Assembly: GCF_040530035.1 (NCBI RefSeq)
Contig: NZ_JBEWCD010000001.1
Location: 1,550,001-1,614,000 of the forward strand
From: Roseibium sp. HPY-6
Lineage (GTDB): Bacteria > Pseudomonadota > Alphaproteobacteria > Rhizobiales > Stappiaceae
DNA: 64,000 nt
Direction: 5' to 3'
A program made the position numbers and the translations under genes. This document shows, piece after piece, positions 51,787 to 64,000 of the stretch. Position 1 is the stretch's first letter; each line of letters starts with the position of its first letter. A model generated the notes under the pieces. It ran no database searches, was not told the DNA's origin, and saw only the letters and a list, made by a program, of their open reading frames with translations.

Positions 51787-52209
51787 TTAGCCGCCGCAGC
51801 CGCCGATGGTCACTTTCACGTTGGCTTTGGCCATCTGGAAGGAGCCATCTTCCATTTTCGCGATTGCGACGACGTTCTGGGTCGTTGCAAGACGGATGCG
51901 CGTCGAGGCGCTGCGAGATGCGCTCAAAGGACCGAACTTGAAAGTCGCGACATTCGGAACGGGGTTTCCGTCGGCAAAGAGCGTCACTTCCGCCGCGCCC
52001 GGCGCGTCGAAGGCAATTGGGACGGTGTTACCGTTTTCCGCGATTTCCGGTGCGGTCAATGTGATGGCCCCCTCGCCCATGTCCGCCCCGCCTGTCAGCT
52101 CGGCTATCGCGTCGTCGGTCAGGGTGGCAAATGCGGGGAAGCTCGGCAGGGTCGCCAGCACGAAAGTACCGGAGCCGAGTGCGAGCAGTTTTCGCCGTGT
52201 CATTTCCAT
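51787..52209 (-). CDS. soxY: Sulfur carrier protein SoxY
   Basis: A 140-residue carrier ending in the swinging-arm sequence GGCGG, whose Cys holds the substrate throughout the cycle. It has a Tat-type signal (TRRKLLALGSGTF). The start was set at ATG 52209 because GGAG lies six bases before it; ATG 52221 has no ribosome-binding site. It forms the SoxYZ heterodimer. Confidence 0.96.
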   Translation of the reverse strand: MEMTRRKLLALGSGTFVLATLPSFPAFATLTDDAIAELTGGADMGEGAITLTAPEIAENGNTVPIAFDAPGAAEVTLFADGNPVPNVATFKFGPLSASRSASTRIRLATTQNVVAIAKMEDGSFQMAKANVKVTIGGCGG

Positions 52210-52231
52210 GTTGGTCTCCATGTGAGGAAGA

Positions 52232-52705
52232 TCAGTCTTCCTTGAGCGTTACGAGAAAGGCGACAACGTCCTCGATCTGCTGAGCCGTCAGCAGCGGCTG
52301 GACTTCACCATCGCCATGAGCATCGCCCGTGTAGGCGTCCCCCAGACGAACAAATCCCTCGGTTTTGTAAAAAGAAGGCATCATGCTGCCCTCAAACATC
52401 ACCTTCGCATTGGTGACGATGCCGCGAAGCTCCGCGACGGACCAGCGATCGGCGACACCGTCGAGCGGTGGGCCAATCTCACCGTGAAAGGCCAGATGAC
52501 TGAGCGCGGAAATCTGATGACAGGCAATACAGTTGCCTGCGCCCTTGTCCATGATTTCGGCCCCTGCCGCGGGATCGCCGGCGACACCGGATAACGAGAC
52601 GTCAACGGCACCATCGGCAAAGACGACGTCCTTCGGCTTGACTGTTTCGGCAAACGCCGTCGTTGCGGCAAGCATTGCAGATAAGCCGAATAGTGCGTTT
52701 TTCAT
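52232..52705 (-). CDS. soxX: Monoheme cytochrome c SoxX
   Basis: A 157-residue protein with a Sec signal (MKNALFGLSAMLAATTAFAE) and one heme site, CIACHQIS, with a probable Met ligand in EGSMMPSFY. It is the partner of SoxA. ATG 52705 follows GGGAGGG; the frame runs to 52786, but that part would overlap the operator. A perfect SoxR-type inverted repeat lies 74 bases upstream. Confidence 0.95.
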   Translation of the reverse strand: MKNALFGLSAMLAATTAFAETVKPKDVVFADGAVDVSLSGVAGDPAAGAEIMDKGAGNCIACHQISALSHLAFHGEIGPPLDGVADRWSVAELRGIVTNAKVMFEGSMMPSFYKTEGFVRLGDAYTGDAHGDGEVQPLLTAQQIEDVVAFLVTLKED

Positions 52706-52778
52706 GTACCCTCCCTCAGTCGATTCCCGGCGACCTTTGGTGCGACCATACATCACATATTCGCTTTTACGCAATAAC

Positions 52779-52798
52779 AAATTCAATTAAATGAATTT
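52779..52798. promoter_or_regulatory. Candidate SoxR operator 3 (soxW-soxX gap)
   Basis: AAATTC-N8-GAATTT with perfect 7-bp arms when extended. In other alphaproteobacteria SoxR is known to act at the soxW-soxX interval, the same position as here. Confidence 0.65.
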
Positions 52799-52858
52799 AT
52801 CTATTTGTTCGCGAACGCAGCAAAAACGAAATAAAATGTCGCGCCGCAGCATCGACAG

Positions 52859-53419
52859 CTACTTGTTTTGGCTCTCGAACTTGCGTGCGTGGTATTTTTG
52901 GAAGGGTTCGTCGCTTTTGTAGCCCTCCTCAACCACCCAGGTCAGCATATTCAACGTCGTCCACCGTCCGAAGGCACCGGGCATGTTGGCAACAGCTGCT
53001 TGTGTTGCTGTCAGATCATCTGCAACCTCGGCCGGGAAGAAAAATATGTTCGGCGTGAACAGCGCGCCCCACCGTTTAACCATGTCCTTTTCCGGCAGCG
53101 TCGTCCCATCGAAATCAGTGACTTCGACATCTCCGAACATGTTGATCTGGACGACAAAAAAATTGTCCTCGATATACCGGGAGATTTCCGGGATCACGAA
53201 AACCTCTTCGTGCATCCGCTTGCAATAGATGCAACCGCGCTGCTCGACGATCACCATCAGTCGCTTGCCTTCAGCGTTTGCTTCTTCAAGGTCTTCTGAA
53301 AGGTCCTTGAAAGTGTCCCGCATCCAGGCTGCCTTGTGAAGGCCATCGTCGCCTATCTCGGCCGCAAACACGTTTGTTGTCAAAATGACCGCGCAAAGCG
53401 TCAAAAGCAGACGTTTCAT
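52859..53419 (-). CDS. soxW: Periplasmic thioredoxin SoxW
   Basis: A 186-residue thioredoxin-fold protein with a Sec signal (MKRLLLTLCAVILTTNVFAAE) and redox motif CIYC in EQRGCIYCKRM. It would receive electrons from membrane SoxV and keep SoxYZ Cys in a usable state. GGAGGAAGG precedes ATG 53419, 16 bases after soxV. The TPNIFFFP cis-Pro region is intact. Confidence 0.9.
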   Translation of the reverse strand: MKRLLLTLCAVILTTNVFAAEIGDDGLHKAAWMRDTFKDLSEDLEEANAEGKRLMVIVEQRGCIYCKRMHEEVFVIPEISRYIEDNFFVVQINMFGDVEVTDFDGTTLPEKDMVKRWGALFTPNIFFFPAEVADDLTATQAAVANMPGAFGRWTTLNMLTWVVEEGYKSDEPFQKYHARKFESQNK

Positions 53420-53435
53420 TTTCCTTCCTCCTCCA

Positions 53436-54176
53436 CTAGCCAATGGCGCTGAACCAGGGAACGTTTTCCAGCATCCATTGAGCGATGACGTTGATGGAAT
53501 TCGTGGCGATCAGGACCCCGAACAGGATCAGAAAAGCGCCCATGAGTTTTTCAATGACGCCGAGATGTTTCCGAAATCCGGCCATCCAGGACATAAACGG
53601 TCCGATGAAAAGAGCCGCAAAAACAAACGGCAGCGTCATGCCGAGGCCGTAGATGAACAACAGCATGGCCCCCTGCCCCGCAGTCTCCTGACCTGCCGCC
53701 GTGAACAGGATTGCGGCCAGTACCGGCCCGACGCACGGCGTCCAACCGAATGCGAATGCAAGACCAACCGCGAAAGCTCCGAGCAGGCTGACACTCGATG
53801 CGTTTCCGGTCTCGACCCGCAGCTGCCGGTAGAGAATACCGATCCGAACCACACCCAGAAAGTGAAGGCCCATCGCAATGACAAGCGCTGCCGCCCCCCA
53901 GCGCAGAACATCAAAATACTCGCGCACCAACTGACCGAATGTGCTTGCGGTGGCGCCGAGCCCCATGAAAACGGTGATTACGCCAAGGGCAAAACAACAG
54001 GCGGAAAGAAAAGCGCGCATCTTTACGGCGCCGGATACGCCCGTCTCTGCTTCCATCTGGTTCAGCCCGACACCTGCAAGGTAACTCAGATAGAACGGTA
54101 CGATGGGCAGGATGCAGGGCGACAGGAACGACAGAAGTCCTGCCGCCAGCGCACCAACAAAGGTAATCTCGAACAT
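53436..54176 (-). CDS. soxV: CcdA/DsbD-like thiol transporter SoxV
   Basis: A 246-residue membrane protein with six helices. The two redox Cys sit in FLSPCILPIVPFYLSY and GWTPCVGPVLAAIL, as in CcdA. It moves reducing equivalents from cytosolic thioredoxin to SoxW/SoxS. First gene of the minus-strand sox transcript, divergent from soxS with an operator in the 51-base gap. Confidence 0.93.
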   Translation of the reverse strand: MFEITFVGALAAGLLSFLSPCILPIVPFYLSYLAGVGLNQMEAETGVSGAVKMRAFLSACCFALGVITVFMGLGATASTFGQLVREYFDVLRWGAAALVIAMGLHFLGVVRIGILYRQLRVETGNASSVSLLGAFAVGLAFAFGWTPCVGPVLAAILFTAAGQETAGQGAMLLFIYGLGMTLPFVFAALFIGPFMSWMAGFRKHLGVIEKLMGAFLILFGVLIATNSINVIAQWMLENVPWFSAIG

Positions 54177-54201
54177 GGAGTGAGCTGCTTCTCAGCTTGA
54201 T

Positions 54202-54221
54202 ATATTCACAAATTAGATTAT
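54202..54221. promoter_or_regulatory. Candidate SoxR operator 4 (soxS-soxV gap)
   Basis: ATATTC-N8-GATTAT, one mismatch from consensus, in the short divergent gap between soxV and soxS, where it could control both directions. Confidence 0.6.
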
Positions 54222-54227
54222 GATTAA

Positions 54228-54626
54228 GTGTATGCACTCGTCAATCGGGGTTTCGAATTGACTTTGTTGAAGACGCTGATCGTTCTGTTGCTGGCGTTCG
54301 CGCCCGCCGGAGCGCGCGCAGAGACGCTCTTGCTCATGGCGGAGGAAGACGGCTGTCACTGGTGCGCGAAATGGAACAAAGAGATAGCGCACATCTACCC
54401 CAAAACGGTTGAAGGCAGGACGGCGCCGCTGAAACGCTATGATTTGCACGGCGAAGCGCCGGATGTGACATTCGAAAAGAAGGTTCGCTTCACACCAACC
54501 TTCATTCTCGTGCACAATGGCGCGGAAGTCGGTCGAATCGAAGGATATCCCGGTGAGGATTTTTTCTGGAGCTTGCTCAACATGATGTTCACTCAGGCGA
54601 ACATTCCACTGGATCAGACGGGTTGA
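54228..54626 (+). CDS. soxS: Periplasmic thioredoxin-like SoxS
   Basis: A 132-residue thioredoxin-like protein with a signal peptide (to GARAE) and CHWC redox motif, then TPTFILVHNG at the cis-Pro. The GTG at 54228 is very close to operator 4; a TTG 12-13 codons in is possible. Its stop overlaps a TTG of the soxR frame. It probably repairs or reactivates SoxYZ thiols, as in Paracoccus. Confidence 0.85.
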   Translation: MYALVNRGFELTLLKTLIVLLLAFAPAGARAETLLLMAEEDGCHWCAKWNKEIAHIYPKTVEGRTAPLKRYDLHGEAPDVTFEKKVRFTPTFILVHNGAEVGRIEGYPGEDFFWSLLNMMFTQANIPLDQTG

Positions 54627-54631
54627 ACAAT

Positions 54632-55015
54632 ATGACTGCTGACACGCAAGGCACCCCCGAAGGCTCAAGCGAAGGAACGTCCCGCCTGCCAGTGTTCGAC
54701 GCCAACATGTGCGCCGAGGATATGGACAGGATGATGAAGAACGCACAGCGTGCCTCCAATTTCCTGAAGGCGATCAGCCACGAAGGCCGCCTGATGATCC
54801 TGTGTCACCTCGCGTCCGGTGAAAAGTCGGTGGCCGAACTGGAAAATCTGCTTTCTGCCAGGCAGGCGGCCGTATCGCAGCAATTGACACGTTTGCGGCT
54901 TGAGGGTCTGGTAACACCACGGCGCGACGGCAAGGCGATCTATTACAGCCTGGCAGATGACAGGCCGAAGCAAATCATGGAAGTTGTCTATGAACTGTTC
55001 TGTCGGGACGACTAA
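54632..55015 (+). CDS. soxR: ArsR-family sulfur-responsive repressor SoxR (SqrR/BigR type)
   Basis: A 127-residue winged-helix repressor: helix-turn-helix with SARQAAVSQQLTRLRLEGLV and wing RRDGKAIYYSL. With ATG 54632 the Cys residues are C27, C58 (LMILCHLASGE) and C124 (ELFCRDD). C58 and C124 match the sensing pair of SqrR/BigR, which link through sulfur atoms on persulfide exposure and release DNA. It follows soxS by 5 bases. Likely target: the 6-8-6 repeat at five promoters here, including its own. Confidence 0.92.
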   Translation: MTADTQGTPEGSSEGTSRLPVFDANMCAEDMDRMMKNAQRASNFLKAISHEGRLMILCHLASGEKSVAELENLLSARQAAVSQQLTRLRLEGLVTPRRDGKAIYYSLADDRPKQIMEVVYELFCRDD

Positions 55016-55056
55016 CCGAACGCTTTGACAGCGTCCGCTTTTGGGAGGAGCCGGAC

Positions 55057-56112
55057 ATGCTGGAAATGCTCGGAGAAGCCAATTCAGTTGCACTGATCGG
55101 CCTTGTGGGCGGCATCGCCCTCGGGCTTGCCGCACGGATTGGCCGCTTCTGCACTCTTGGTGCCATCGAAGATTTTCTCTATGGCGCGGACGACCGCCGT
55201 CTGCGCATGTGGGGTCTGGCAATCGGTGTCGCCATTATCGGATCGCACGCAGCCATGTCCTCGGGGTTCCTGGAAGGCTCCGGCACAGCTTATCTCGACA
55301 GGGTCTGGAACCCGCTCGGTTCGATCATCGGCGGACTGATGTTCGGTTACGGCATGGCACTTTGCGGCAATTGCGGCTATGGCGCCCTTGCCCGCCTCGG
55401 CGGCGGGGATTTGCGGGCGTTTGTCATGGTCATCGTGATGGGGCTGTCCGCCTATTTTGTCATGTCGGGCCCCCTCGCCCATGCGCGTGTCTGGTTGTTC
55501 CCGGCCGAGACAGGTGCCGAAACGCCACAAGGCGTGAGTCAGTTCTTTGATGCCCGCTTCGGTATTGCGCCCGTCGTAACGGGCCTCGTAATCGGCGGCC
55601 TGATCATCGCGTTTACGCTCGCAAGCGCCACCTTCCGGCAGTCCCCACGCCATATCTTCTGGGGAAGTGTTGTCGGCCTGGCGATCGTTTCGGGATGGGT
55701 CGGCACCTATTGGGTGGCCATGACAGGCTTTGAAGCAGAACCGGTTGAGACGCACACATTCGCCGCGCCCATCGGCGACACGATCTACTACGCCATGACC
55801 GCCTCCGGTAACACGCTCTCTTTCAGCGTCGGATCGGTTGCCGGTGTCATCATCGGTGCGTTTCTCGGATCGTTTTCAAAAGGGCATTTCCGATGGGAAG
55901 CCTGCGAAGATCCACGCGAGCTGCGTCGGCAGATCACAGGAGCGGCAATCATGGGTCCTGGCGCGATCCTGGCCGTAGGGTGCAGTGTCGGCCAGGGTAT
56001 TTCCGCGTTTTCAGTGCTTGCCTACAGCGCACCGGTGACATTTCTTGCCATTTTTGCCGGAGCCGCACTTGGCTTGAAACAGCTCATCACGGGTTTTGCA
56101 CCAGCCGAATAG
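55057..56112 (+). CDS. YeeE/YedE-family sulfur transporter (SoxT-like), copy 1
   Basis: A 351-residue polytopic membrane protein made of two YeeE halves, with conserved Cys in GRFCTLGAIED, LCGNCGYGAL and AVGCSVGQGIS. YeeE from Spirochaeta carries thiosulfate through successive Cys contacts; here the substrate may be thiosulfate or sulfane sulfur moved into the cytosol, which could supply the SoxR signal. GGGAGG precedes ATG 55057. It follows soxR by 41 bases in the soxSR operon. Confidence 0.9.
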   Translation: MLEMLGEANSVALIGLVGGIALGLAARIGRFCTLGAIEDFLYGADDRRLRMWGLAIGVAIIGSHAAMSSGFLEGSGTAYLDRVWNPLGSIIGGLMFGYGMALCGNCGYGALARLGGGDLRAFVMVIVMGLSAYFVMSGPLAHARVWLFPAETGAETPQGVSQFFDARFGIAPVVTGLVIGGLIIAFTLASATFRQSPRHIFWGSVVGLAIVSGWVGTYWVAMTGFEAEPVETHTFAAPIGDTIYYAMTASGNTLSFSVGSVAGVIIGAFLGSFSKGHFRWEACEDPRELRRQITGAAIMGPGAILAVGCSVGQGISAFSVLAYSAPVTFLAIFAGAALGLKQLITGFAPAE

Positions 56113-56162
56113 CTCGGGATAGTTGCGCTAGAGCCATTTGACACGCGTGCCACCGTCGCATC

Positions 56163-56182
56163 ATATTCAAATTATCGAATTT
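56163..56182. promoter_or_regulatory. Candidate SoxR operator 5
   Basis: ATATTC-N8-GAATTT, 105 bases before the second YeeE gene, in a 175-base gap. It implies a separate sulfur-controlled promoter for that transporter. Confidence 0.6.
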
Positions 56183-56287
56183 TTTGATGCGTTCTTGAGA
56201 TCGGTCAATGCGATCCGATCGACGGTCCTCAGAATTGGCACCATCTTCAACTTCTGACAGCGCTGATCCCGCTGCATTGGATCGTAC

Positions 56288-57391
56288 ATGGACCTGACCC
56301 CCGTTCTTGAAAGCTTATCGGAGCCCACAGTGCTCGTCATCGGTGGATTGGTGGTCGGTGTCACGTTCGGCGCTCTCGCCCAGCAGAGCCGTTTCTGCCT
56401 TCGGGCCGCAGCACTTGAGTTCTCGCGCCGCAAACCGTCCGACCGGCTGCCCATCTGGCTGCTTGCTTTTTCAAGCGCCATGATCGCAACGCAGCTTCTC
56501 AATATGTTCGGCGAGATCGCCGCGGACGAAACCCGGCAACTGGCGTCTCCGCAGAGCCTCTCTGGGGCACTGATCGGTGGCCTGTTGTTCGGAACGGGCA
56601 TGGTCATGGCCCGCGGCTGCGCCAGCCGGCTCCTGGTGCTTTCGGCAACCGGCAACCTGAGAGCGCTGCTCTCCGGACTGGTCTTTGCGGTTGTCGCCCA
56701 GTCCAGTCTATATGGCGCTTTGAAACCGATGCGTGACTGGTTGTCCGGATTGTGGACAACGGTTGACACAGGAGGCAACAACCTGACTTCATTCCTTGGA
56801 TTGAGCGAGGCATCCATTTTTCTGTTCGGTGGTCTCTGGCTGCTCGCGGGTCTTGGTTTTGCGTGGCGCAACCGGAGTTCTATATGGCAGACAGTTGCAG
56901 CAGTCGGTGTGGGATTGACGGTCCCGCTTGCGCTTTGGTTCACGACTGCCATGTCACGGCAGGCCTTTGATCCTGTTCAGATTGAAGGCGTGACCTTTAC
57001 CGGACCGTCCGCCGACATGCTGATGCTGTTCCTGTCAGCACCTTTCGAAAGCCTCGGCTTCAATTCCGGACTTGTTCCAGGCGTTTTCCTCGGCTCGTTT
57101 GTTGCGGCGCTCCTGACCCGGCAGTTGGTGCTGCAGGGCTTTGAGAGCGGACCATCCATGGCCCGGTATCTCACCGGCGCTGCCCTGATGGGATTTGGCG
57201 GGATGCTGGCCGGTGGCTGTGCGGTCGGCGCGGGCATATCAGGCGCGTCCCTCTTCGCGGTGACCGCCTGGCTCACGCTCATCGGCATCTGGCTGTCCGC
57301 GATTGTTACGGATCATGTTTTCAAAAACGCAGCGCGCAAGACGAACGTTAGACAGAGCGCGCGCCTGGGCGGGCAACAAGCAGCGCTTTGA
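56288..57391 (+). CDS. YeeE/YedE-family sulfur transporter, copy 2
   Basis: A 367-residue membrane protein of the same superfamily as the preceding gene but distant from it. Its conserved Cys lie in SRFCLRAAA, ARGCASRLLV and AGGCAVGAGIS. The second half is complete, so it is a full transporter and not a half. It has its own upstream SoxR-type operator and is followed by a hairpin. Two different YeeE proteins under the same repressor could import different sulfur species or act in opposite directions. Confidence 0.88.
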   Translation: MDLTPVLESLSEPTVLVIGGLVVGVTFGALAQQSRFCLRAAALEFSRRKPSDRLPIWLLAFSSAMIATQLLNMFGEIAADETRQLASPQSLSGALIGGLLFGTGMVMARGCASRLLVLSATGNLRALLSGLVFAVVAQSSLYGALKPMRDWLSGLWTTVDTGGNNLTSFLGLSEASIFLFGGLWLLAGLGFAWRNRSSIWQTVAAVGVGLTVPLALWFTTAMSRQAFDPVQIEGVTFTGPSADMLMLFLSAPFESLGFNSGLVPGVFLGSFVAALLTRQLVLQGFESGPSMARYLTGAALMGFGGMLAGGCAVGAGISGASLFAVTAWLTLIGIWLSAIVTDHVFKNAARKTNVRQSARLGGQQAAL

Positions 57392-57676: not shown

Positions 57677-58612
57677 CTAGCCTTCCAAAATACGCTTGAG
57701 AGAAACGACGGCAGCGGATGTCCGGTTCTCGACCCCGAGTTTTCCGAAAATCCGGTCAAGATGCTTGTTCACCGTTCGCGGGCTCATCTCAAGAATGACC
57801 GCAATTTCCTTGTTCGACTTGCCATTCGCAATCCATGTCAGCACCTCGGCTTCGCGCTCTGTCAAATCGAATGATCTTCGAAGAATGTCGGACGGACCGC
57901 CGCCGACCACTTCGGTGACGCGCAGCAGATGTTCGCCTGAGCTGATTTGACCGGCATAGCTGAACCTGAGCGACAAACCAGACATCGCCGCAACGACGTC
58001 ATTGTTGCCAAGCGCGTGTTTGCTCGCTTCAAGCAGATAGCCGCGCAGCCATTCCGTGGCTTCGACAGGCAACTCGCCGAATGTTTCCTCGTCTCTCGTG
58101 CCTTTGCCATCGAGCAGTGCAAGAGCTTGCGGCGTTGCCCAGCAAATCCGACCGGATAGATCCACCGAAATAAGAAACCGCCCGGATGCGTCCAGCGCGA
58201 CATGCGCACTGTGCGTGTTGCGGGCGTTTGATATATGGACGCGCAATCTTGCAATGAGTTCATCCGGGTCGACAGGTTTGGTGACGTAGTCAACGCCGCC
58301 GGACTCCAGTCCCCTGACGATATGTTCCGTCTGGCTAAGACCGGTCATGAAGAGAACCGGCACGTCGCGAAGGGCATCAAGTTGTTTGATCTGCTTGCTC
58401 GTTTCGAAACCGTCAAGCTCCGGCATGATTGCATCCATCAGGATGGCACTCGGCGTAATTCTTGCCGCGATGTCCAGGGCCTTGCGACCGTCCTGGGCAA
58501 CCAGCACCGTATAACCGGCCTCTTCCAGGGCATCTGTCAGCATGCCCAGGGACGCCGGCGCATCATCGACAACGAGAACGGTTTCGCTGGGACTAGGAGC
58601 ATTCATGATCAT
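57677..58612 (-). CDS. Two-component response regulator, REC plus LuxR-type HTH
   Basis: A 311-residue protein: receiver domain with phospho-acceptor Asp in ILMDAIMPELDGF and the switch Lys in DYVTKPVDP, a central PAS-like segment, and a LuxR/FixJ HTH (LTEREAEVLTWIANGKSNKEIA in pieces). Its start lies inside the end of the kinase gene (ATG 58612 or 58606; kinase stop 58593), so they are translationally coupled partners. It probably controls the divergent urt operon or other nitrogen genes. Confidence 0.88.
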   Translation of the reverse strand: MIMNAPSPSETVLVVDDAPASLGMLTDALEEAGYTVLVAQDGRKALDIAARITPSAILMDAIMPELDGFETSKQIKQLDALRDVPVLFMTGLSQTEHIVRGLESGGVDYVTKPVDPDELIARLRVHISNARNTHSAHVALDASGRFLISVDLSGRICWATPQALALLDGKGTRDEETFGELPVEATEWLRGYLLEASKHALGNNDVVAAMSGLSLRFSYAGQISSGEHLLRVTEVVGGGPSDILRRSFDLTEREAEVLTWIANGKSNKEIAVILEMSPRTVNKHLDRIFGKLGVENRTSAAVVSLKRILEG

Positions 58613-61600
58613 GTCCAAGTCCTTCCAGTACCTTGTCATATCGGGTGAGATCGAATTCACGGATGAGGCGTCGCATATGTCCGACAAACTCCGCCGCATT
58701 TGGTTCGTGCGCCTCAATGTCATCAAGCTTCGCCCTGATGCCACGAACATAGCCCAGACTGCTCAGCTGCTTGAGCATTTCAAGGCTCTCTACCGAAGGC
58801 AGGCTGTCTCCAGCGAACACGCGTTCGGATGCAGCGGCCGGGATGTGAAGCTGTGGGCGTGACTGCATGGGCGAGGTCCGCCAGACGAGTTTCAGACCCT
58901 GTTGCAATTTGTTCTGAAGGTCCTGCAGCCGGACAGGCTTCACCAGATAGTCGTCGTGGTAAATCCTGTGGAGCGGATCTCGTCCGCTGTCATCGGCATT
59001 TGCGGAGATCATGATGATGAGCGCATCGCTGTGTCCTGTTTCGCGAAGCGTTCTGGCAAGGTCCCATCCGTTCATGCCGGGCATGCTGATATCCAGAAGA
59101 AATGCGCTGGGTTTTTCGGTCGCGACCAACTTTAGACATTCGTTGCCGCTGGCGGCGGTCAGCACCTTGAAACCCAACGGATTGAGAAAATCCTGGATCA
59201 GCGATCTTTGAGCCGCATCGTCATCCACCACCATGATCGTTTGGACAGCGCCTTCATAGCCATGGACGTGTTTTTCGGCCGGGGCTGTCTGTGCCGGCGC
59301 ATTCGCGGCACTCAAAAGGATCCGCACCTTGAAGGTGCTGCCCTTGCCTTTCTCGCTTTCAACCTGGATGTCACCACCCATGATCTCGCTCAGGAGCTTG
59401 GTGATCGTCAGCCCGAGACCCGTGCCAGGAATGCCCGACTGCCCTTCGTCCTCAACTCTTTCAAAAGGATTAAAGATCCGCTTCAGGTTCTCTTCGGCAA
59501 TACCGATACCGGTGTCGACAATCGAAAACTCGGCGACCTGACTGTGGTAGGAGACGATCAGACTGACGCGGCCACTGTCCGTCCATTTGATCGCATTCGA
59601 AAGCAGGTTGATAAGCACCTGCCGAAGCCTCTTTTCATCGCCGAATACAAACTGGGGCAGATTGTCCGCGGGACTGAATGCCAATGTCAGTGCCTTGGCG
59701 TCCGTCTGCAGCCGGAACATGTCGACGATCTGCGTGAGGAACTCATGCAGATTAAACCGCTCCCGGTAGATCGTCAGGTGTCCCGCCTCTATTTTGGAAA
59801 TGTCGAGAAGCCCTTCGATCAGGCCGGCCAGATGGTCGGCGGAATGCTGAATGACCTTCACCGCGTCCCGGCGATGGGCCGGGATTGTCGGATCCTTGCG
59901 CATGAGCTGTGCATATCCGGCAATCGCATTCAGCGGAGACCGCAATTCGTGGCTAATGCCGACAACATATCTGCTTTTGGCCTGGTTGGCGGCTTCCGCG
60001 GCTTCCTTGGCTTTTTGCAGTTTGGCGTCCGTTCTCTGGTGCGCCCTGATTTCCTTCATCAAAAGACTGGTCTGGCGCCGTGTCTCTTCATTGGCGAATT
60101 TGCGGCTTTCGTGGACCAGAACGAACAGCCAGGCCATTACGCCGGAAATGAGCAGCAGGATGAAAAAGACCTGGGTCAGCGCCCGGGCGACGCTGTCCGT
60201 CCCATAAAGGGCCTGCTGTGCCCCGGCCTCGACGAAGACAAGGTAGAGAATGCCGCCGAGGGACAGCATCGTGATCAGCATGATCCCAAGATAAATGCCG
60301 ATGCGCGACCCAAGCCAATTGGCTGTACGAGTGGGCAGCAGAGAATGCAGCAGCAGGGATATCTGATCGCCCCATCGGGCGTTTTCCTTGCAATCGTCCT
60401 CGCAGCGCGCATCGAGGGAGCAGCACAGCGAGCAGATCGGACCCGTATAGACCGGGCAATGCGTCATATCCTCGTGTTCAAATGTGTGTTCACAAATACA
60501 GCACTGGACGGTCTGTTTCTTTTCACCGGTCTTGGAAACAAGTTCGACGGCCTCGCGCGCGATGTAATATTTGCCTTTCGTCACGAACGCGATCACGGGC
60601 GCCAGAACGATCGCGGTGAAAAGCGCGATATAGCTGGCAAGCGCATGTGCCGTTTGCCCGAACCAGCCGGCATAGGCCAAGAACGCTATGACGCTCGCGA
60701 CGATCATCGAGCCCAGTCCGACAGGGTTGATGTCATAAAGATGAGCGCGCTTGAACTCGATATAGGACGGGCTGAGACCCAGTGGCTTGTTGATCACAAG
60801 ATCTGCAAACAGCGCTCCGATCCAGGCAACCGCAACGATCGAATAAAGGCCGAGCGTCCGTTCCAGTGCCTTGTAGACGCCCAGCTCCATCAATGTCAGA
60901 GCAATCACGACATTAAATACCAGCCACACAACGCGGCCCGGGTGGCTGTGGGTCAGGCGGGAAAAGAAATTGGACCAGGCAATCGAGCCCGCATAGGAAT
61001 TCGTGATGTTGATCTTGATCTGGCAAACGACCACGAAGATACCTGTCAGCGCGATGGCGACTTCCGGCGTCGTTACCTTGCTGAAGGCAACCAGATACAT
61101 ATGCGTCGGCTCGACGGCTTTGTCCGGTGCAAGCCCGCTCTGCAGAGCAACCACGACAAGGAACGATCCCAGCAGGAGCTTGAAGGCCCCGATTACGATC
61201 CACCCCGGTCCGGCAGCCAGCAACGCGAACCACCAGCCGACCCGACCACCGCGCCTCTGGCGCGGGAGAAAACGCAGAAAGTCGACCTGCTCACCAATCT
61301 GCGCGATGAGCGAAAACAGGACCGCACTCGCTGCACCAAAGAGAAGAAGGTTGAATTGACCGTTCTCATCCCCCAGGCGCCCTGAAAAATTCTGCCAGTC
61401 CTCAATGGGTGCCAGCCCCTGCCAGGCGAGAAAGGCAAAGGGAAGAAGCTGAAGAACGATCCAAAGCGGCTGGGTGTAGACCTGAAGCCGGCTAATGAGT
61501 GTGATGCCGTAGATCACCATCGGAATGACGACGAGTGAGCAAATGAGGTAGCCGACATTGAGCGGAATCCCTAAGAACAGCTCGAGCGCCGTCGCCATAA

Positions 61601-62006
61601 TCGCCGCTTCCAGAGCGAAGAAGATGAAGGTGAAGCTGGCATAGATCAGCGAGGTGACCGTCGAGCCGATATAGCCGAAGCCGGCACCGCGGGTGAGAAG
61701 ATCGATATCGACGCCGTATTTCACCGCGTAATATGAAATCGGCAAACCGGTCACAAAGATAAGCAGGCCGACCAGCATGATCGCCGGAACTGCATTGGAA
61801 AAACCATAGTTGTATGTGATGGCTGCGCCGATCGCTTCCAGCGCGAGAAAGGAAATGGCGCCGAGCGCCGTGTTGGCAACCCACACAGGTGACCACCGCC
61901 GGGCGCTCTTTGCCGTGAAGCGCAGGGCATAGTCCTCAAAGGTCTGGTTGGCGACCCACTGATTATATGTTCGACGCGAGCGCACAACCCGCTGGTAACC
62001 TGCCAT
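58593..62006 (-). CDS. Hybrid histidine kinase fused to an NCS1-like transporter domain
   Basis: A 1137-residue membrane sensor. Residues about 20-490 form a 12-helix NCS1 (purine/cytosine permease)-like domain. A Cys-rich segment follows (about 500-535; CCICEHTF, CPVY, CSLCCSLDARCEDDC) that may bind metal, then two more helices, HisKA with ISHELRSPLN (His near 685), a HATPase (DTGIGI, GTGLGL) and a receiver with Asp in FLLDISMPG (near 972). The last about 80 residues may be an HPt-like helical unit. It is divergent from urtA and upstream of its response regulator. It probably senses or transports a purine, hydantoin or allantoin-like nitrogen source. Confidence 0.88.
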   Translation of the reverse strand: MAGYQRVVRSRRTYNQWVANQTFEDYALRFTAKSARRWSPVWVANTALGAISFLALEAIGAAITYNYGFSNAVPAIMLVGLLIFVTGLPISYYAVKYGVDIDLLTRGAGFGYIGSTVTSLIYASFTFIFFALEAAIMATALELFLGIPLNVGYLICSLVVIPMVIYGITLISRLQVYTQPLWIVLQLLPFAFLAWQGLAPIEDWQNFSGRLGDENGQFNLLLFGAASAVLFSLIAQIGEQVDFLRFLPRQRRGGRVGWWFALLAAGPGWIVIGAFKLLLGSFLVVVALQSGLAPDKAVEPTHMYLVAFSKVTTPEVAIALTGIFVVVCQIKINITNSYAGSIAWSNFFSRLTHSHPGRVVWLVFNVVIALTLMELGVYKALERTLGLYSIVAVAWIGALFADLVINKPLGLSPSYIEFKRAHLYDINPVGLGSMIVASVIAFLAYAGWFGQTAHALASYIALFTAIVLAPVIAFVTKGKYYIAREAVELVSKTGEKKQTVQCCICEHTFEHEDMTHCPVYTGPICSLCCSLDARCEDDCKENARWGDQISLLLHSLLPTRTANWLGSRIGIYLGIMLITMLSLGGILYLVFVEAGAQQALYGTDSVARALTQVFFILLLISGVMAWLFVLVHESRKFANEETRRQTSLLMKEIRAHQRTDAKLQKAKEAAEAANQAKSRYVVGISHELRSPLNAIAGYAQLMRKDPTIPAHRRDAVKVIQHSADHLAGLIEGLLDISKIEAGHLTIYRERFNLHEFLTQIVDMFRLQTDAKALTLAFSPADNLPQFVFGDEKRLRQVLINLLSNAIKWTDSGRVSLIVSYHSQVAEFSIVDTGIGIAEENLKRIFNPFERVEDEGQSGIPGTGLGLTITKLLSEIMGGDIQVESEKGKGSTFKVRILLSAANAPAQTAPAEKHVHGYEGAVQTIMVVDDDAAQRSLIQDFLNPLGFKVLTAASGNECLKLVATEKPSAFLLDISMPGMNGWDLARTLRETGHSDALIIMISANADDSGRDPLHRIYHDDYLVKPVRLQDLQNKLQQGLKLVWRTSPMQSRPQLHIPAAASERVFAGDSLPSVESLEMLKQLSSLGYVRGIRAKLDDIEAHEPNAAEFVGHMRRLIREFDLTRYDKVLEGLGHDHECS

Positions 62007-62458
62007 CTATCCTGCCTTGCGATCCGTTTTCACTTGGATCCGCTCAGATTTTGTGCATCGCAATCCCGCTGTTGCCTTTTGTAGCTCAAACACTCGGCAA
62101 AGAGCACACAGAGAGCAGCTGATACACTCTCGCTCCAACTACGACTTGCAATTATCGTGCCCAATCTCAGCCAATTAATCTTATTGTTACTATGTTACAT
62201 GAAGAATTATTCGGCAAAGAGTTATCTTGCAGCCTCAACGCTCAGTATTTTGAAAGCATCTTTGAATGAAGTCGCTCAGGAATATTTCCACGCGACCAAG
62301 CGAAACATTGTCTCATAGTTCGAACCGAGCCGGAATCAGTCAATTGACCCACAGCAACTGACGCATTGCGGCAGCGCACAAAAAACGTCGACGCTTGGAG
62401 CCAGACAGAGGTGCTTGAAAGCGCCCTGCTCAAACTCGAACCAGATAGGGGTCCAAGT
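62007..62458. promoter_or_regulatory. Divergent kinase-urtA regulatory region
   Basis: About 450 bases without a gene, AT-richer than its surroundings around 62150-62220. The 11-base direct repeat TCGGCAAAGAG occurs at 62094-62104 and 62211-62221 and could be a binding site for the LuxR-type regulator. No sure -35/-10 pair could be fixed. Confidence 0.4.
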
Positions 62459-63712
62459 ATGCGACGCGTGAAAGACATTATTCAAAGCCGGATGTCCCGC
62501 CGGTCCCTCCTGGCGGGAACCGCCGCCACTGCAATTGTCGCGGCGACTGGTGCGGTAACGCCGGCCTTCGCCGACGAAGTCAACACCACGGGGCTCGCCG
62601 TTACCGACGACACTGTTCAGGTCGGTATTCTTCATTCGGTCACGGGCACCATGGCGATCTCCGAGACCGGGTCCGTGCAGGCTGAAAAGCTGGCCATCGA
62701 ACAGATCAACGCCATGGGCGGCGTTCTTGGCCGGAAGATCGAATACATCCAGGAAGACGGCGCCTCCGACTGGCCGACTTTCGCGGAAAAGGCCAAAAAG
62801 CTCCTCGTGAACGACAAGGTCGCTGCCGTCTTCGGATGCTGGACGTCAGCCTCCCGCAAAGCGGTTCTGCCGGTGTTCGAACAGTATAACGGCATGCTCT
62901 ACTATCCGACCTTCTACGAGGGGCTAGAGCAGTCGCCGAACGTGATCTACACGGGCCAGGAAGCGACGCAGCAGATCATTGCCGGGATCGACTGGGTTGC
63001 TGAGGAAAAGGGTGCGAAAAGTTTCTACCTGCTCGGATCCGACTACATCTGGCCGCGCACGTCCAACAAGATCGCCCGCAAGCACATTGAGAAACTTGGC
63101 CACAAGGTTGTCGGCGAGGAGTACTATCCGCTCGGCCATACCCAATTCAACTCGGTCATCAACAAGATCAAGCTGAAGAAGCCGGACGTTATCTACGCCA
63201 TCGTCGTGGGCGGTTCGAACGTTGCTTTTTACAAGCAGCTCAAGGCTGCCGGCATCGACATGACCAAGGAAAAACCGCTTCTGCTGACGATTTCGGTGAC
63301 CGAAGACGAAATCCGCGGCATTGGTGGTGAAAACATCGAGGGCGCTTACGCCGCGATGAAATACTTCCAGTCTCTGGAAAACGAAAACAACATCGAATTC
63401 GTGAAAGCATTCAAGGAGATGTGGGGCGATGATGTCGTCATTGGCGACGTTACCCAGGCCGCTTATCTCGGTCCATGGCTCTGGAAGGCCGCGGTCGAAA
63501 AGGCGGGCAGCTTCGACATCGACAAGGTGCGCCTCGCATCACCGGGCATTGAACTGACCACGGCGCCTGAAGGCTATGTACGCATTCACGAAAACCACCA
63601 CCTGTGGTCCAAGACGCGCATCGGTCTGGCAAAGCCCGACGGTCAGTATGAACTGATCTATGAAACCGCGGAGCTGATGGAGCCGGATCCGTTCCCGGAA
63701 GGCTACCAGTAA
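62459..63712 (+). CDS. urtA: Urea ABC transporter substrate-binding protein UrtA
   Basis: A 417-residue periplasmic binding protein of the HAAT family with a Tat signal (SRRSLLAGTAATAIVAATG). Diagnostic UrtA segments include VGILHSVTGTMAISE, VFGCWTSASRKAVLPVFE and YYPTFYEG. The start is ATG 62459; ATG 62492, nearer the RR pair, is an alternative. It binds urea or short-chain amides such as those made from purine breakdown. urtB follows. The neighbouring NCS1-fused kinase is its probable regulator. Confidence 0.95.
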   Translation: MRRVKDIIQSRMSRRSLLAGTAATAIVAATGAVTPAFADEVNTTGLAVTDDTVQVGILHSVTGTMAISETGSVQAEKLAIEQINAMGGVLGRKIEYIQEDGASDWPTFAEKAKKLLVNDKVAAVFGCWTSASRKAVLPVFEQYNGMLYYPTFYEGLEQSPNVIYTGQEATQQIIAGIDWVAEEKGAKSFYLLGSDYIWPRTSNKIARKHIEKLGHKVVGEEYYPLGHTQFNSVINKIKLKKPDVIYAIVVGGSNVAFYKQLKAAGIDMTKEKPLLLTISVTEDEIRGIGGENIEGAYAAMKYFQSLENENNIEFVKAFKEMWGDDVVIGDVTQAAYLGPWLWKAAVEKAGSFDIDKVRLASPGIELTTAPEGYVRIHENHHLWSKTRIGLAKPDGQYELIYETAELMEPDPFPEGYQ

Positions 63713-63743: not shown

Positions 63744-63809
63744 CGCCCGCCCGATTGACGGGCGACCCGGCAAGGCACTGCGCGCGAGCAGCCCGTGCGG
63801 TGCCTTGCC
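63744..63809 (+). repeat. Two hairpins between urtA and urtB
   Basis: CGCCCG (63744-63749) with CGGGCG (63759-63764), then GGCAAGGCAC (63769-63778) with its exact complement at 63800-63809. Such structures after binding-protein genes often stabilise the upstream mRNA and reduce expression of the permease genes. Confidence 0.55.
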
Positions 63810-63885
63810 CAACCTTCGCACTTGCCATTCCCACAGCAGGGGCACCTTGCCTTCGCATCGCCCCAAAGCCTGGAGACCGCGCGCC

Positions 63886-64000
63886 ATGTTCGCCGACTAC
63901 ACCTGGACGGAACTCGGGTCCATCTTTGCCATGCAGGGTTTTGCCGGACTGATCCTTTTTTCCGTTTTCGTTCTGATGGCCCTGGGCCTTGCAATCATTT
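63886..64000 (+). CDS. urtB: Urea ABC transporter permease UrtB, cut by window end
   Basis: The first 38 codons of a membrane protein: ATG 63886 with GGAG upstream, then MQGFAGLILFSVFVLMALG, which matches the first helix of UrtB/LivH-type permeases. The frame is open to the last base. The gene continues outside the window, presumably followed by urtCDE. Confidence 0.8.
   Translation, partial: MFADYTWTELGSIFAMQGFAGLILFSVFVLMALGLAII

Follow-up and report, generated by a model that had tools for sequence, protein, structure and literature searches.

The subject of this work is a protein encoded in a 64,000-nucleotide stretch of the genome of Roseibium sp. HPY-6 (assembly GCF_040530035.1, contig NZ_JBEWCD010000001.1, positions 1,550,001 to 1,614,000; hereafter the window), namely a hybrid sensor histidine kinase of 1137 amino acids (58593..62006, minus strand) whose N-terminal domain has the fold of the NCS1 transporters and which lies divergent from an amide- or urea-type uptake operon. 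This kinase is probably a transceptor-like sensor of small amides and urea that activates uptake and hydrolysis genes by way of its cognate regulator and a palindromic DNA site. The evidence comes from computation on the architecture of the protein, its kinase motifs, its gene linkage and co-occurrence, and the palindrome. We infer that formamide, acetamide or urea would be bound in a very polar pocket of the NCS1-fold domain, which would be the receptor and possibly a slow transporter as well, and that the conformational change would travel through a cytoplasmic, putatively metal-binding module of eight invariant cysteines (Cys), in the role proposed for STAC in CbrA, and then through two helices to the kinase. 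Phosphate would pass from His686 to Asp and then to a LuxR-type regulator, which would bind an 18-bp palindrome (consensus ATACGTCAATTGACGTAT, with a diverged form in the source genus) and activate the divergent urtABCDE-fmdA operon, while sister copies of the kinase would act likewise on canonical urea transporter and urease operons.

An earlier, sequence-only reading had proposed a CbrA-like fusion of an NCS1 transporter with a histidine kinase coupled to a LuxR-type regulator, and both parts of this proposal proved correct. Domain calls and the structural match to the NCS1 fold place in a single protein, all on the minus strand, an NCS1/LeuT-fold membrane domain (residues 26-486, 60549..61931, the range aligned in the structure comparison), a Cys module (residues 502-539, 60390..60503, from the family alignment and a model of the module alone), two helices (residues 568-593 and 603-639, 60090..60305, from the secondary structure of the model), both probably membrane-spanning, and three domains placed by domain match and alignment: HisKA (residues 677-742, 59781..59978), HATPase_c (residues 789-897, 59316..59642) and a C-terminal receiver domain (REC; residues 924-1034, 58905..59237). 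All residues expected of a hybrid kinase are present: the H-box His of HisKA (His686), the N, G1 and G2 boxes of HATPase_c, and the REC Asp and Lys (Asp972, Lys1023). The coupled response regulator, with REC and GerE (LuxR/NarL-type) domain matches, is encoded at 57677..58612 on the minus strand; its open reading frame (ORF) opens at 58750 and its start is likely the ATG at 58612, so that the gene overlaps the 3' end and stop of the kinase gene.

On the other side of the kinase lie, on the plus strand, the gene for a UrtA-type substrate-binding protein (62459..63712; ORF from 62366, likely ATG at 62459) and the start of a urtB-like permease gene cut by the window end (63795..64000), the latter recognized by tblastn similarity and lacking an NCBIfam match at E<=1e-20. 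Beyond the window the operon contains urtC, urtD, urtE, fmdA and the gene of a Zn-ribbon protein, with fmdA (formamidase; genome C1:1617510-1618739) next after urtE across a gap of 57 bases and its product scoring 766.6 bits against NF045496 (cut-off 500). The neighbours had been read as urea uptake genes, which holds inasmuch as the kinase is divergent from urtA- and urtB-like genes, but the operon ends in a formamidase. The window UrtA (558.3 bits) and the canonical UrtA of the source genome (563.9 bits) both exceed the TIGR03407 cut-off of 492.75, so amide and urea types are not told apart by this model. For a urtABCDE-fmdA/amiE cluster in Bradyrhizobium the substrate has been argued to be an amide rather than urea (PMC3098086, 2010), and a Pseudomonas carrying the cluster together with a plasmid amidase operon grows on acetamide and formamide (PMC13209695, 2026); in the available passages of the latter paper neither amiC nor amiR lies at the cluster and FmdB is called a positive regulator. 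Judged by its predicted gene content, the operon is one that serves amides. Gene clusters of FmdA, the Zn-ribbon protein and an AmiE-like CN_hydrolase (typed by representatives) span 38, 24 and 11 of 82 loci, a set made up of the 80 closest loci and two source-genome loci, many of which end before the fmdA point. Some of these clusters also hold an AAA ATPase gene (L060:2584-3627, AAA_2 by Pfam, in a gene cluster spanning 6 loci), and in L153:1804-2874 and L154:1939-2982 an AAA ATPase, judged by place and length, stands between amiE and fmdA.

The linkage between kinase and operon is strong. A protein search returned at least 7,999 candidates with E values no higher than 0.001, and members of the family occur in Bradyrhizobium, Pseudomonas, Alcanivorax and Roseibium. 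As a fairer sample than the closest 80 loci we used an even draw of 299 Pseudomonadota genomes, the source genome included, in which the kinase is present in 38 genomes (43 copies) at E<=1e-20. The type of UrtA found in the window, hereafter fmd-type, was defined at >=73% identity, the next among the matches listed being at <=47%; it occurs in 29 of the 299 genomes (30 rows), every one of which has the kinase (p 9e-33 in a Fisher test on genome counts that ignores relatedness). Kinase and fmd-type urtA are adjacent and divergent in 28 of these 29, with 330-858 bp between the matches, and in G111 they lie on different contigs, the kinase at a contig end; G028 has a second fmd-type UrtA without a kinase nearby. 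FmdA (E<=1e-60) was found in 31 genomes, namely the 29 with fmd-type UrtA, G197 and G114, of which all except G114 have the kinase, and fmdA lies 3.6-6.2 kb from urtA in 29/29. The neighbours of NCS1-kinase fusions, whose tabulation had been suggested beforehand, are fmd or urea genes for 40 of the 43 copies: 29 copies are fmd-type, six (G162, the C2 copy of the source genome, G107, G043, G253 and G265) are divergent from a canonical urtA at 0.3-6.6 kb, two (G142, G158) stand in clusters ordered urtABCDE, urease genes, kinase, regulator (by Pfam, UreC, UreD, a UreG-type protein and UreJ in G142 and UreC in G158), one (G246) has a canonical urtA 4.2 kb downstream, and two (G197 and the second G091 copy) have a formamidase about 3 kb away, leaving three tied to neither kind of gene (G019, G224 and the second copy of G225). 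A UrtA relative (E<=1e-40) is present in 128 genomes, and just 8 of the 99 without the fmd type have the kinase, so the kinase does not serve as a general regulator for urea. A further sample, made up of the closest 80 of at least 595 loci, is biased, and six of its loci were dropped for too little upstream DNA; 67 of the remaining 74 kinases are divergent from fmd-type UrtA and 4 from the canonical one, a further one has a canonical UrtA 7.7 kb off, and two have neither.

Within the genus, at least one kinase copy occurs in 39 of 41 genomes, and the window-type kinase (>=77% identity) in 18, each of which has a second copy at 54-56%. The second copy of the source genome, on C2, is 55% identical over residues 4-640 and divergent from a canonical urtABCDE operon (long UrtB, TIGR03409); after this kinase come a LuxR-type regulator of its own and ZnuA/ABC-3 genes. 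The latter (L113:12604-16244) encode a ZnuA-like binding protein, an ATPase and two ABC-3 permeases, that is, metal uptake beside a Cys-module kinase. In a quick tree of 85 kinase copies, which has some long branches, urea-linked copies fall in several places (4 changes needed, as low in 0/500 shuffles), a scatter suggesting that partner switching or repeated duplication of the kinase systems is likely.

A rival possibility is that the kinase is not itself the amide receptor and that the signal is the docking of liganded UrtA, or the transport flux of the Urt ABC system, at the NCS1 domain. Binding proteins dock on TorS or LuxQ, and the strict divergence from urtA in 28/29 would suit such an arrangement, as would the fact that the kinase pairs with both kinds of UrtA, in the canonical case on several branches of the quickly built tree. 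Against it, no periplasmic domain was seen in the kinase by domain search or in the structure model, and two short kinase forms of 894-899 amino acids (L158:7163-9847 in G197, and G091:C3:144251-146131), which to judge from the sequence end apparently stop after the ATPase domain, each have a formamidase about 3 kb away. A separate 422-residue regulator stands between short kinase and formamidase in G197, and no ORF in the 13.5 kb around this kinase matches the Urt markers. Docking of this kind is an unlikely source of the signal. Another shortened relative, P0098 of Bradyrhizobium diazoefficiens (645 amino acids), has about the length of the pre-kinase part and may reflect a split gene or frameshift.

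The proposal that the kinase acts through its own operator rests on the 18-bp palindrome, which is prominent in the kinase-urtA gaps and which, together with the co-occurrence, upholds the tie to the neighbouring uptake genes that had been put forward earlier. At >=13/18 positions it is found in 48 of 71 intergenics versus a mean of 0.4/71 in Markov shuffles, the consensus being derived from the very intergenics counted; the source-genome scan, the same-genus loci and the 299 genomes are independent. In the 7.03-Mb source genome the palindrome occurs at <=3 mismatches in a single place, with one mismatch, in the kinase-urtA gap of the paralogue, and the reversed pattern has zero places at that threshold. 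Among the 12 same-genus loci of the second type that were fetched, a part of all such loci, 11 carry a site of >=25 bits within 1.5 kb upstream of the kinase and L145 has none. The strict pattern is present in nine of the 299 genomes, eight of them kinase-bearing versus 38/299 overall (Fisher p 3e-7, relatedness ignored), and the reversed-pattern control has matches in 5/299, including G081. Seven of the 13 places with the strict pattern are in a kinase-urtA gap. In G142 the kinase is some 10 kb distant and the pattern stands 130 bp before urtA, which ties the site to urtA, and in G186 and G174 (2/13 places) it lies 100-122 bp upstream of fmdA. Of the remaining three places, one, L152:3971 (G246:C1:4639970), 3.6 kb beyond fmdA, is without an assigned target gene, and two, L155:5039 and L155:13454, are in the draft genome G081, which has no kinase match; these two are separated by 8.4 kb, and genes near the first resemble, by eye, a restriction system. 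A second strong palindrome of one locus, L079:2621, scores 24.2 bits and lies on the downstream side of the urt operon, some 7 kb from the kinase-urtA gap.

What weighs against the proposed circuit is the state of the site in the window itself, where the palindrome copy, ATCAGTCAATTGACCCAC (62335..62352, plus strand), is degenerate: at 11.2 bits it is second best in the 64 kb and weak alone, and it ends 106 bp before the likely urtA ATG. It falls in a 40-bp footprint block (62334..62373, plus strand) that has few substitutions in 17/17 examined same-genus loci, the flanking sequence being visibly less conserved. Were two paralogous systems in one cell to be insulated from each other, diverged operators would be expected.

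The Cys-rich linker, which had been credited with about ten Cys, holds nine, of which eight (C502, C505, C517, C525, C528, C529, C535 and C539) are invariant in 43/43 relatives. In the 299 genomes, at tblastn-like sensitivity, the module is confined to the kinase family (43 of 44 matches; E 0.0045 for the remaining one). The structure model of the module alone is weakly treble-clef-like, and the eight invariant Cys together with this model fit a zinc module; a zinc-stabilised treble-clef-like coupling element is the most likely reading. No family name was drawn from the matches of the module alone, every one of which is weak, and neither Prok-RING_1 (3/21 members, best E 1.2) nor a treble-clef model (2/40, best E 0.00026) was used. 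It could be imagined, in line with the metal or redox input suggested earlier, that this module and not the NCS1 domain is the input, switching in response to metal or redox state, and that the NCS1 domain is an anchor or remnant. Its invariant Cys and its restriction to the family would agree with this, as would the ZnuA/ABC-3 metal-uptake genes that follow the C2 paralogue and the nickel that urease requires. The membrane domain is itself highly invariant, however, and a ZnuA neighbour occurs in 1/82 loci versus fmd or urea genes near 40/43 kinase copies; that the module is the input in place of the NCS1 domain is quite improbable.

The assignment of the membrane domain, on which reception of amides by the kinase would depend, is based on structure. 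Its best structural matches are the NCS1 transporters CodB and Mhp1 (PF02133), which rank above SLC5 structures. For the membrane part no transporter family was found in Pfam or among the best 25 of 152 NCBIfam matches, and PF02133 is absent from the Pfam matches of all 21 family members scanned. A standalone relative, 30% identical, matches PF02133 with 36.4 bits (cut-off 23.5). Against PDB sequences the full-length protein had 263 matches, of which the best 60 are kinase or receiver matches, a profile of residues 1-640 gave three weak matches to zinc proteins, and the standalone relative gave one unrelated match. The NCS1 call accordingly rests on the structure comparison and the PF02133 bridge. 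Aligned directly with CodB, the family alone reaches an hhalign probability of 14.8-15.2, and family plus standalone relatives 96.8 over 365 columns against the CodB profile; the alignment was accepted solely through this bridge. An identity as an SLC5-STAC kinase was rejected: the NCS1 structures outrank SLC5, the nearest standalone relative belongs to PF02133, and no SSF (SLC5) match was found in Pfam for the kinase or the 21 family members.

In CodB, cytosine is sandwiched between Trp108 and Phe204, aromatics conserved in NCS1 (Phe204 or Trp), and Na+ is partly bound by Thr278 and Thr279 (PMC9379551). By the bridged alignment Trp108 corresponds to position 129, which is F in 72/72 fmd-type copies and, among the 24 urea-type ones, L in 19 and F in 5, and Phe204 to L233, identical in 96/96; the aromatic sandwich of transmembrane helix (TM) 3 (Trp) and TM6 (Phe/Trp) thus appears not to be kept, giving way to F129/L233 or L129/L233, while the equivalents of Arg216 and Tyr285 are retained as R245 and Y338. 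Among 17 membrane-domain positions of our own selection, 14 are identical in all 72 fmd-type and 24 urea-type copies (E57, T126, E133, L233, Q236, E239, Q240, D242, R245, K331, I332, N333, N336, Y338). Since many further columns are invariant as well, this speaks for retention of the domain more than it proves a pocket. The register of TM8 is ambiguous, the Na2-site hydroxyl equivalents being 331/332 (K, I) or 334/335 (V/I/L, T/M); in CbrA, K196 occupies the Na2 site (PMC13022988). A filter for columns dividing amide- from urea-type kinases returned nothing beyond position 270 (I/V) and, where the alignment ends, a gap column, and by inspection positions 129 and 335 differ, a comparison that carries no specificity claim. 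Twelve of the 24 urea-type labels stem from canonical urt or urease genes seen nearby and 12 (L139-L150) were assigned by similarity, as were 4 of the 72 fmd-type labels (L122, L126, L130, L137). A polar, non-stacking site common to both types would suit bases less well than small amides and urea. The earlier suggestion of a purine- or hydantoin-type ligand, attractive in that cytosine and hydantoins are substrates of NCS1 transporters of known structure (PMC9379551), is very improbable, as the partner genes are those of formamidase, aliphatic amidase, urt and urease, with a formamidase ending the operon and sister copies in urt-urease clusters, and the stacking aromatics align to F/L129 and L233.

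The closest known systems are the SLC5-STAC kinases CbrA, CrbS and RpuS, called transceptors (PMC13022988; PMC7096432, PMC9100948, PMC5715377), which likewise join a LeuT-fold transporter domain to a cytoplasmic kinase and serve a nutrient-utilisation regulon. Unlike CbrA, the present kinase has an NCS1-fold membrane domain, a fixed linkage to amide or urea genes and a LuxR-type partner, and its 8-Cys module and two helices, a stretch without a Pfam match, occupy the slot of STAC and PAS. With CodB and Mhp1 (PF02133) it shares the fold and the equivalents of CodB Arg216 and Tyr285; it differs from them in the missing PF02133 match of its family (21/21), the altered stacking aromatics and the fused kinase. 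The urtABCDE-fmdA/amiE amide cluster described earlier is of the same kind, the kinase being unnamed in the available passages (PMC3098086; PMC13209695). In Ectopseudomonas guguanensis G3, a LuxR-type two-component regulator pair adjoins urtABCDE in operon III, with fmdA on the next locus tag and a hybrid kinase in a figure legend; the passages available describe neither the fusion, the Cys module nor a function (PMC13296017, 2026). The transporter-kinase fusions described in the papers found are SLC5-type, with an S-component, another transporter-receptor fold, in PMC11109136. A literature search, mostly at the level of titles and beginnings of abstracts, found no paper on an NCS1-kinase fusion, and protein names at JGI show that machine annotation had picked up the fusion.

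Beside the kinase-regulator pair, at 51787-57391, the window holds sulfur-oxidation genes (SoxY and SoxX by NCBIfam), an ArsR-type regulator nearest BigR and two TsuA/YeeE-like transporters, all below cut-off, and three further ORFs without a match at E<=1e-10; the sulfur-oxidation genes give no sign of belonging to the amide system.

There is about an even chance that these proteins form an undescribed, widespread class of transceptors in which an NCS1/LeuT-fold receptor for urea and short amides is combined with a private 8-Cys metal transmission module and a palindromic operator. A second LeuT-fold family with a different, Cys-rich kinase coupler would help to test how transporter motion is turned into a phosphorylation signal. 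The analysis also proposes a regulator, and a testable operator sequence, for the scavenging of formamide, acetamide and urea in many Proteobacteria, and, if true, it would fill the place of a regulator so far missing for the urt-fmd amide clusters and some urease operons.

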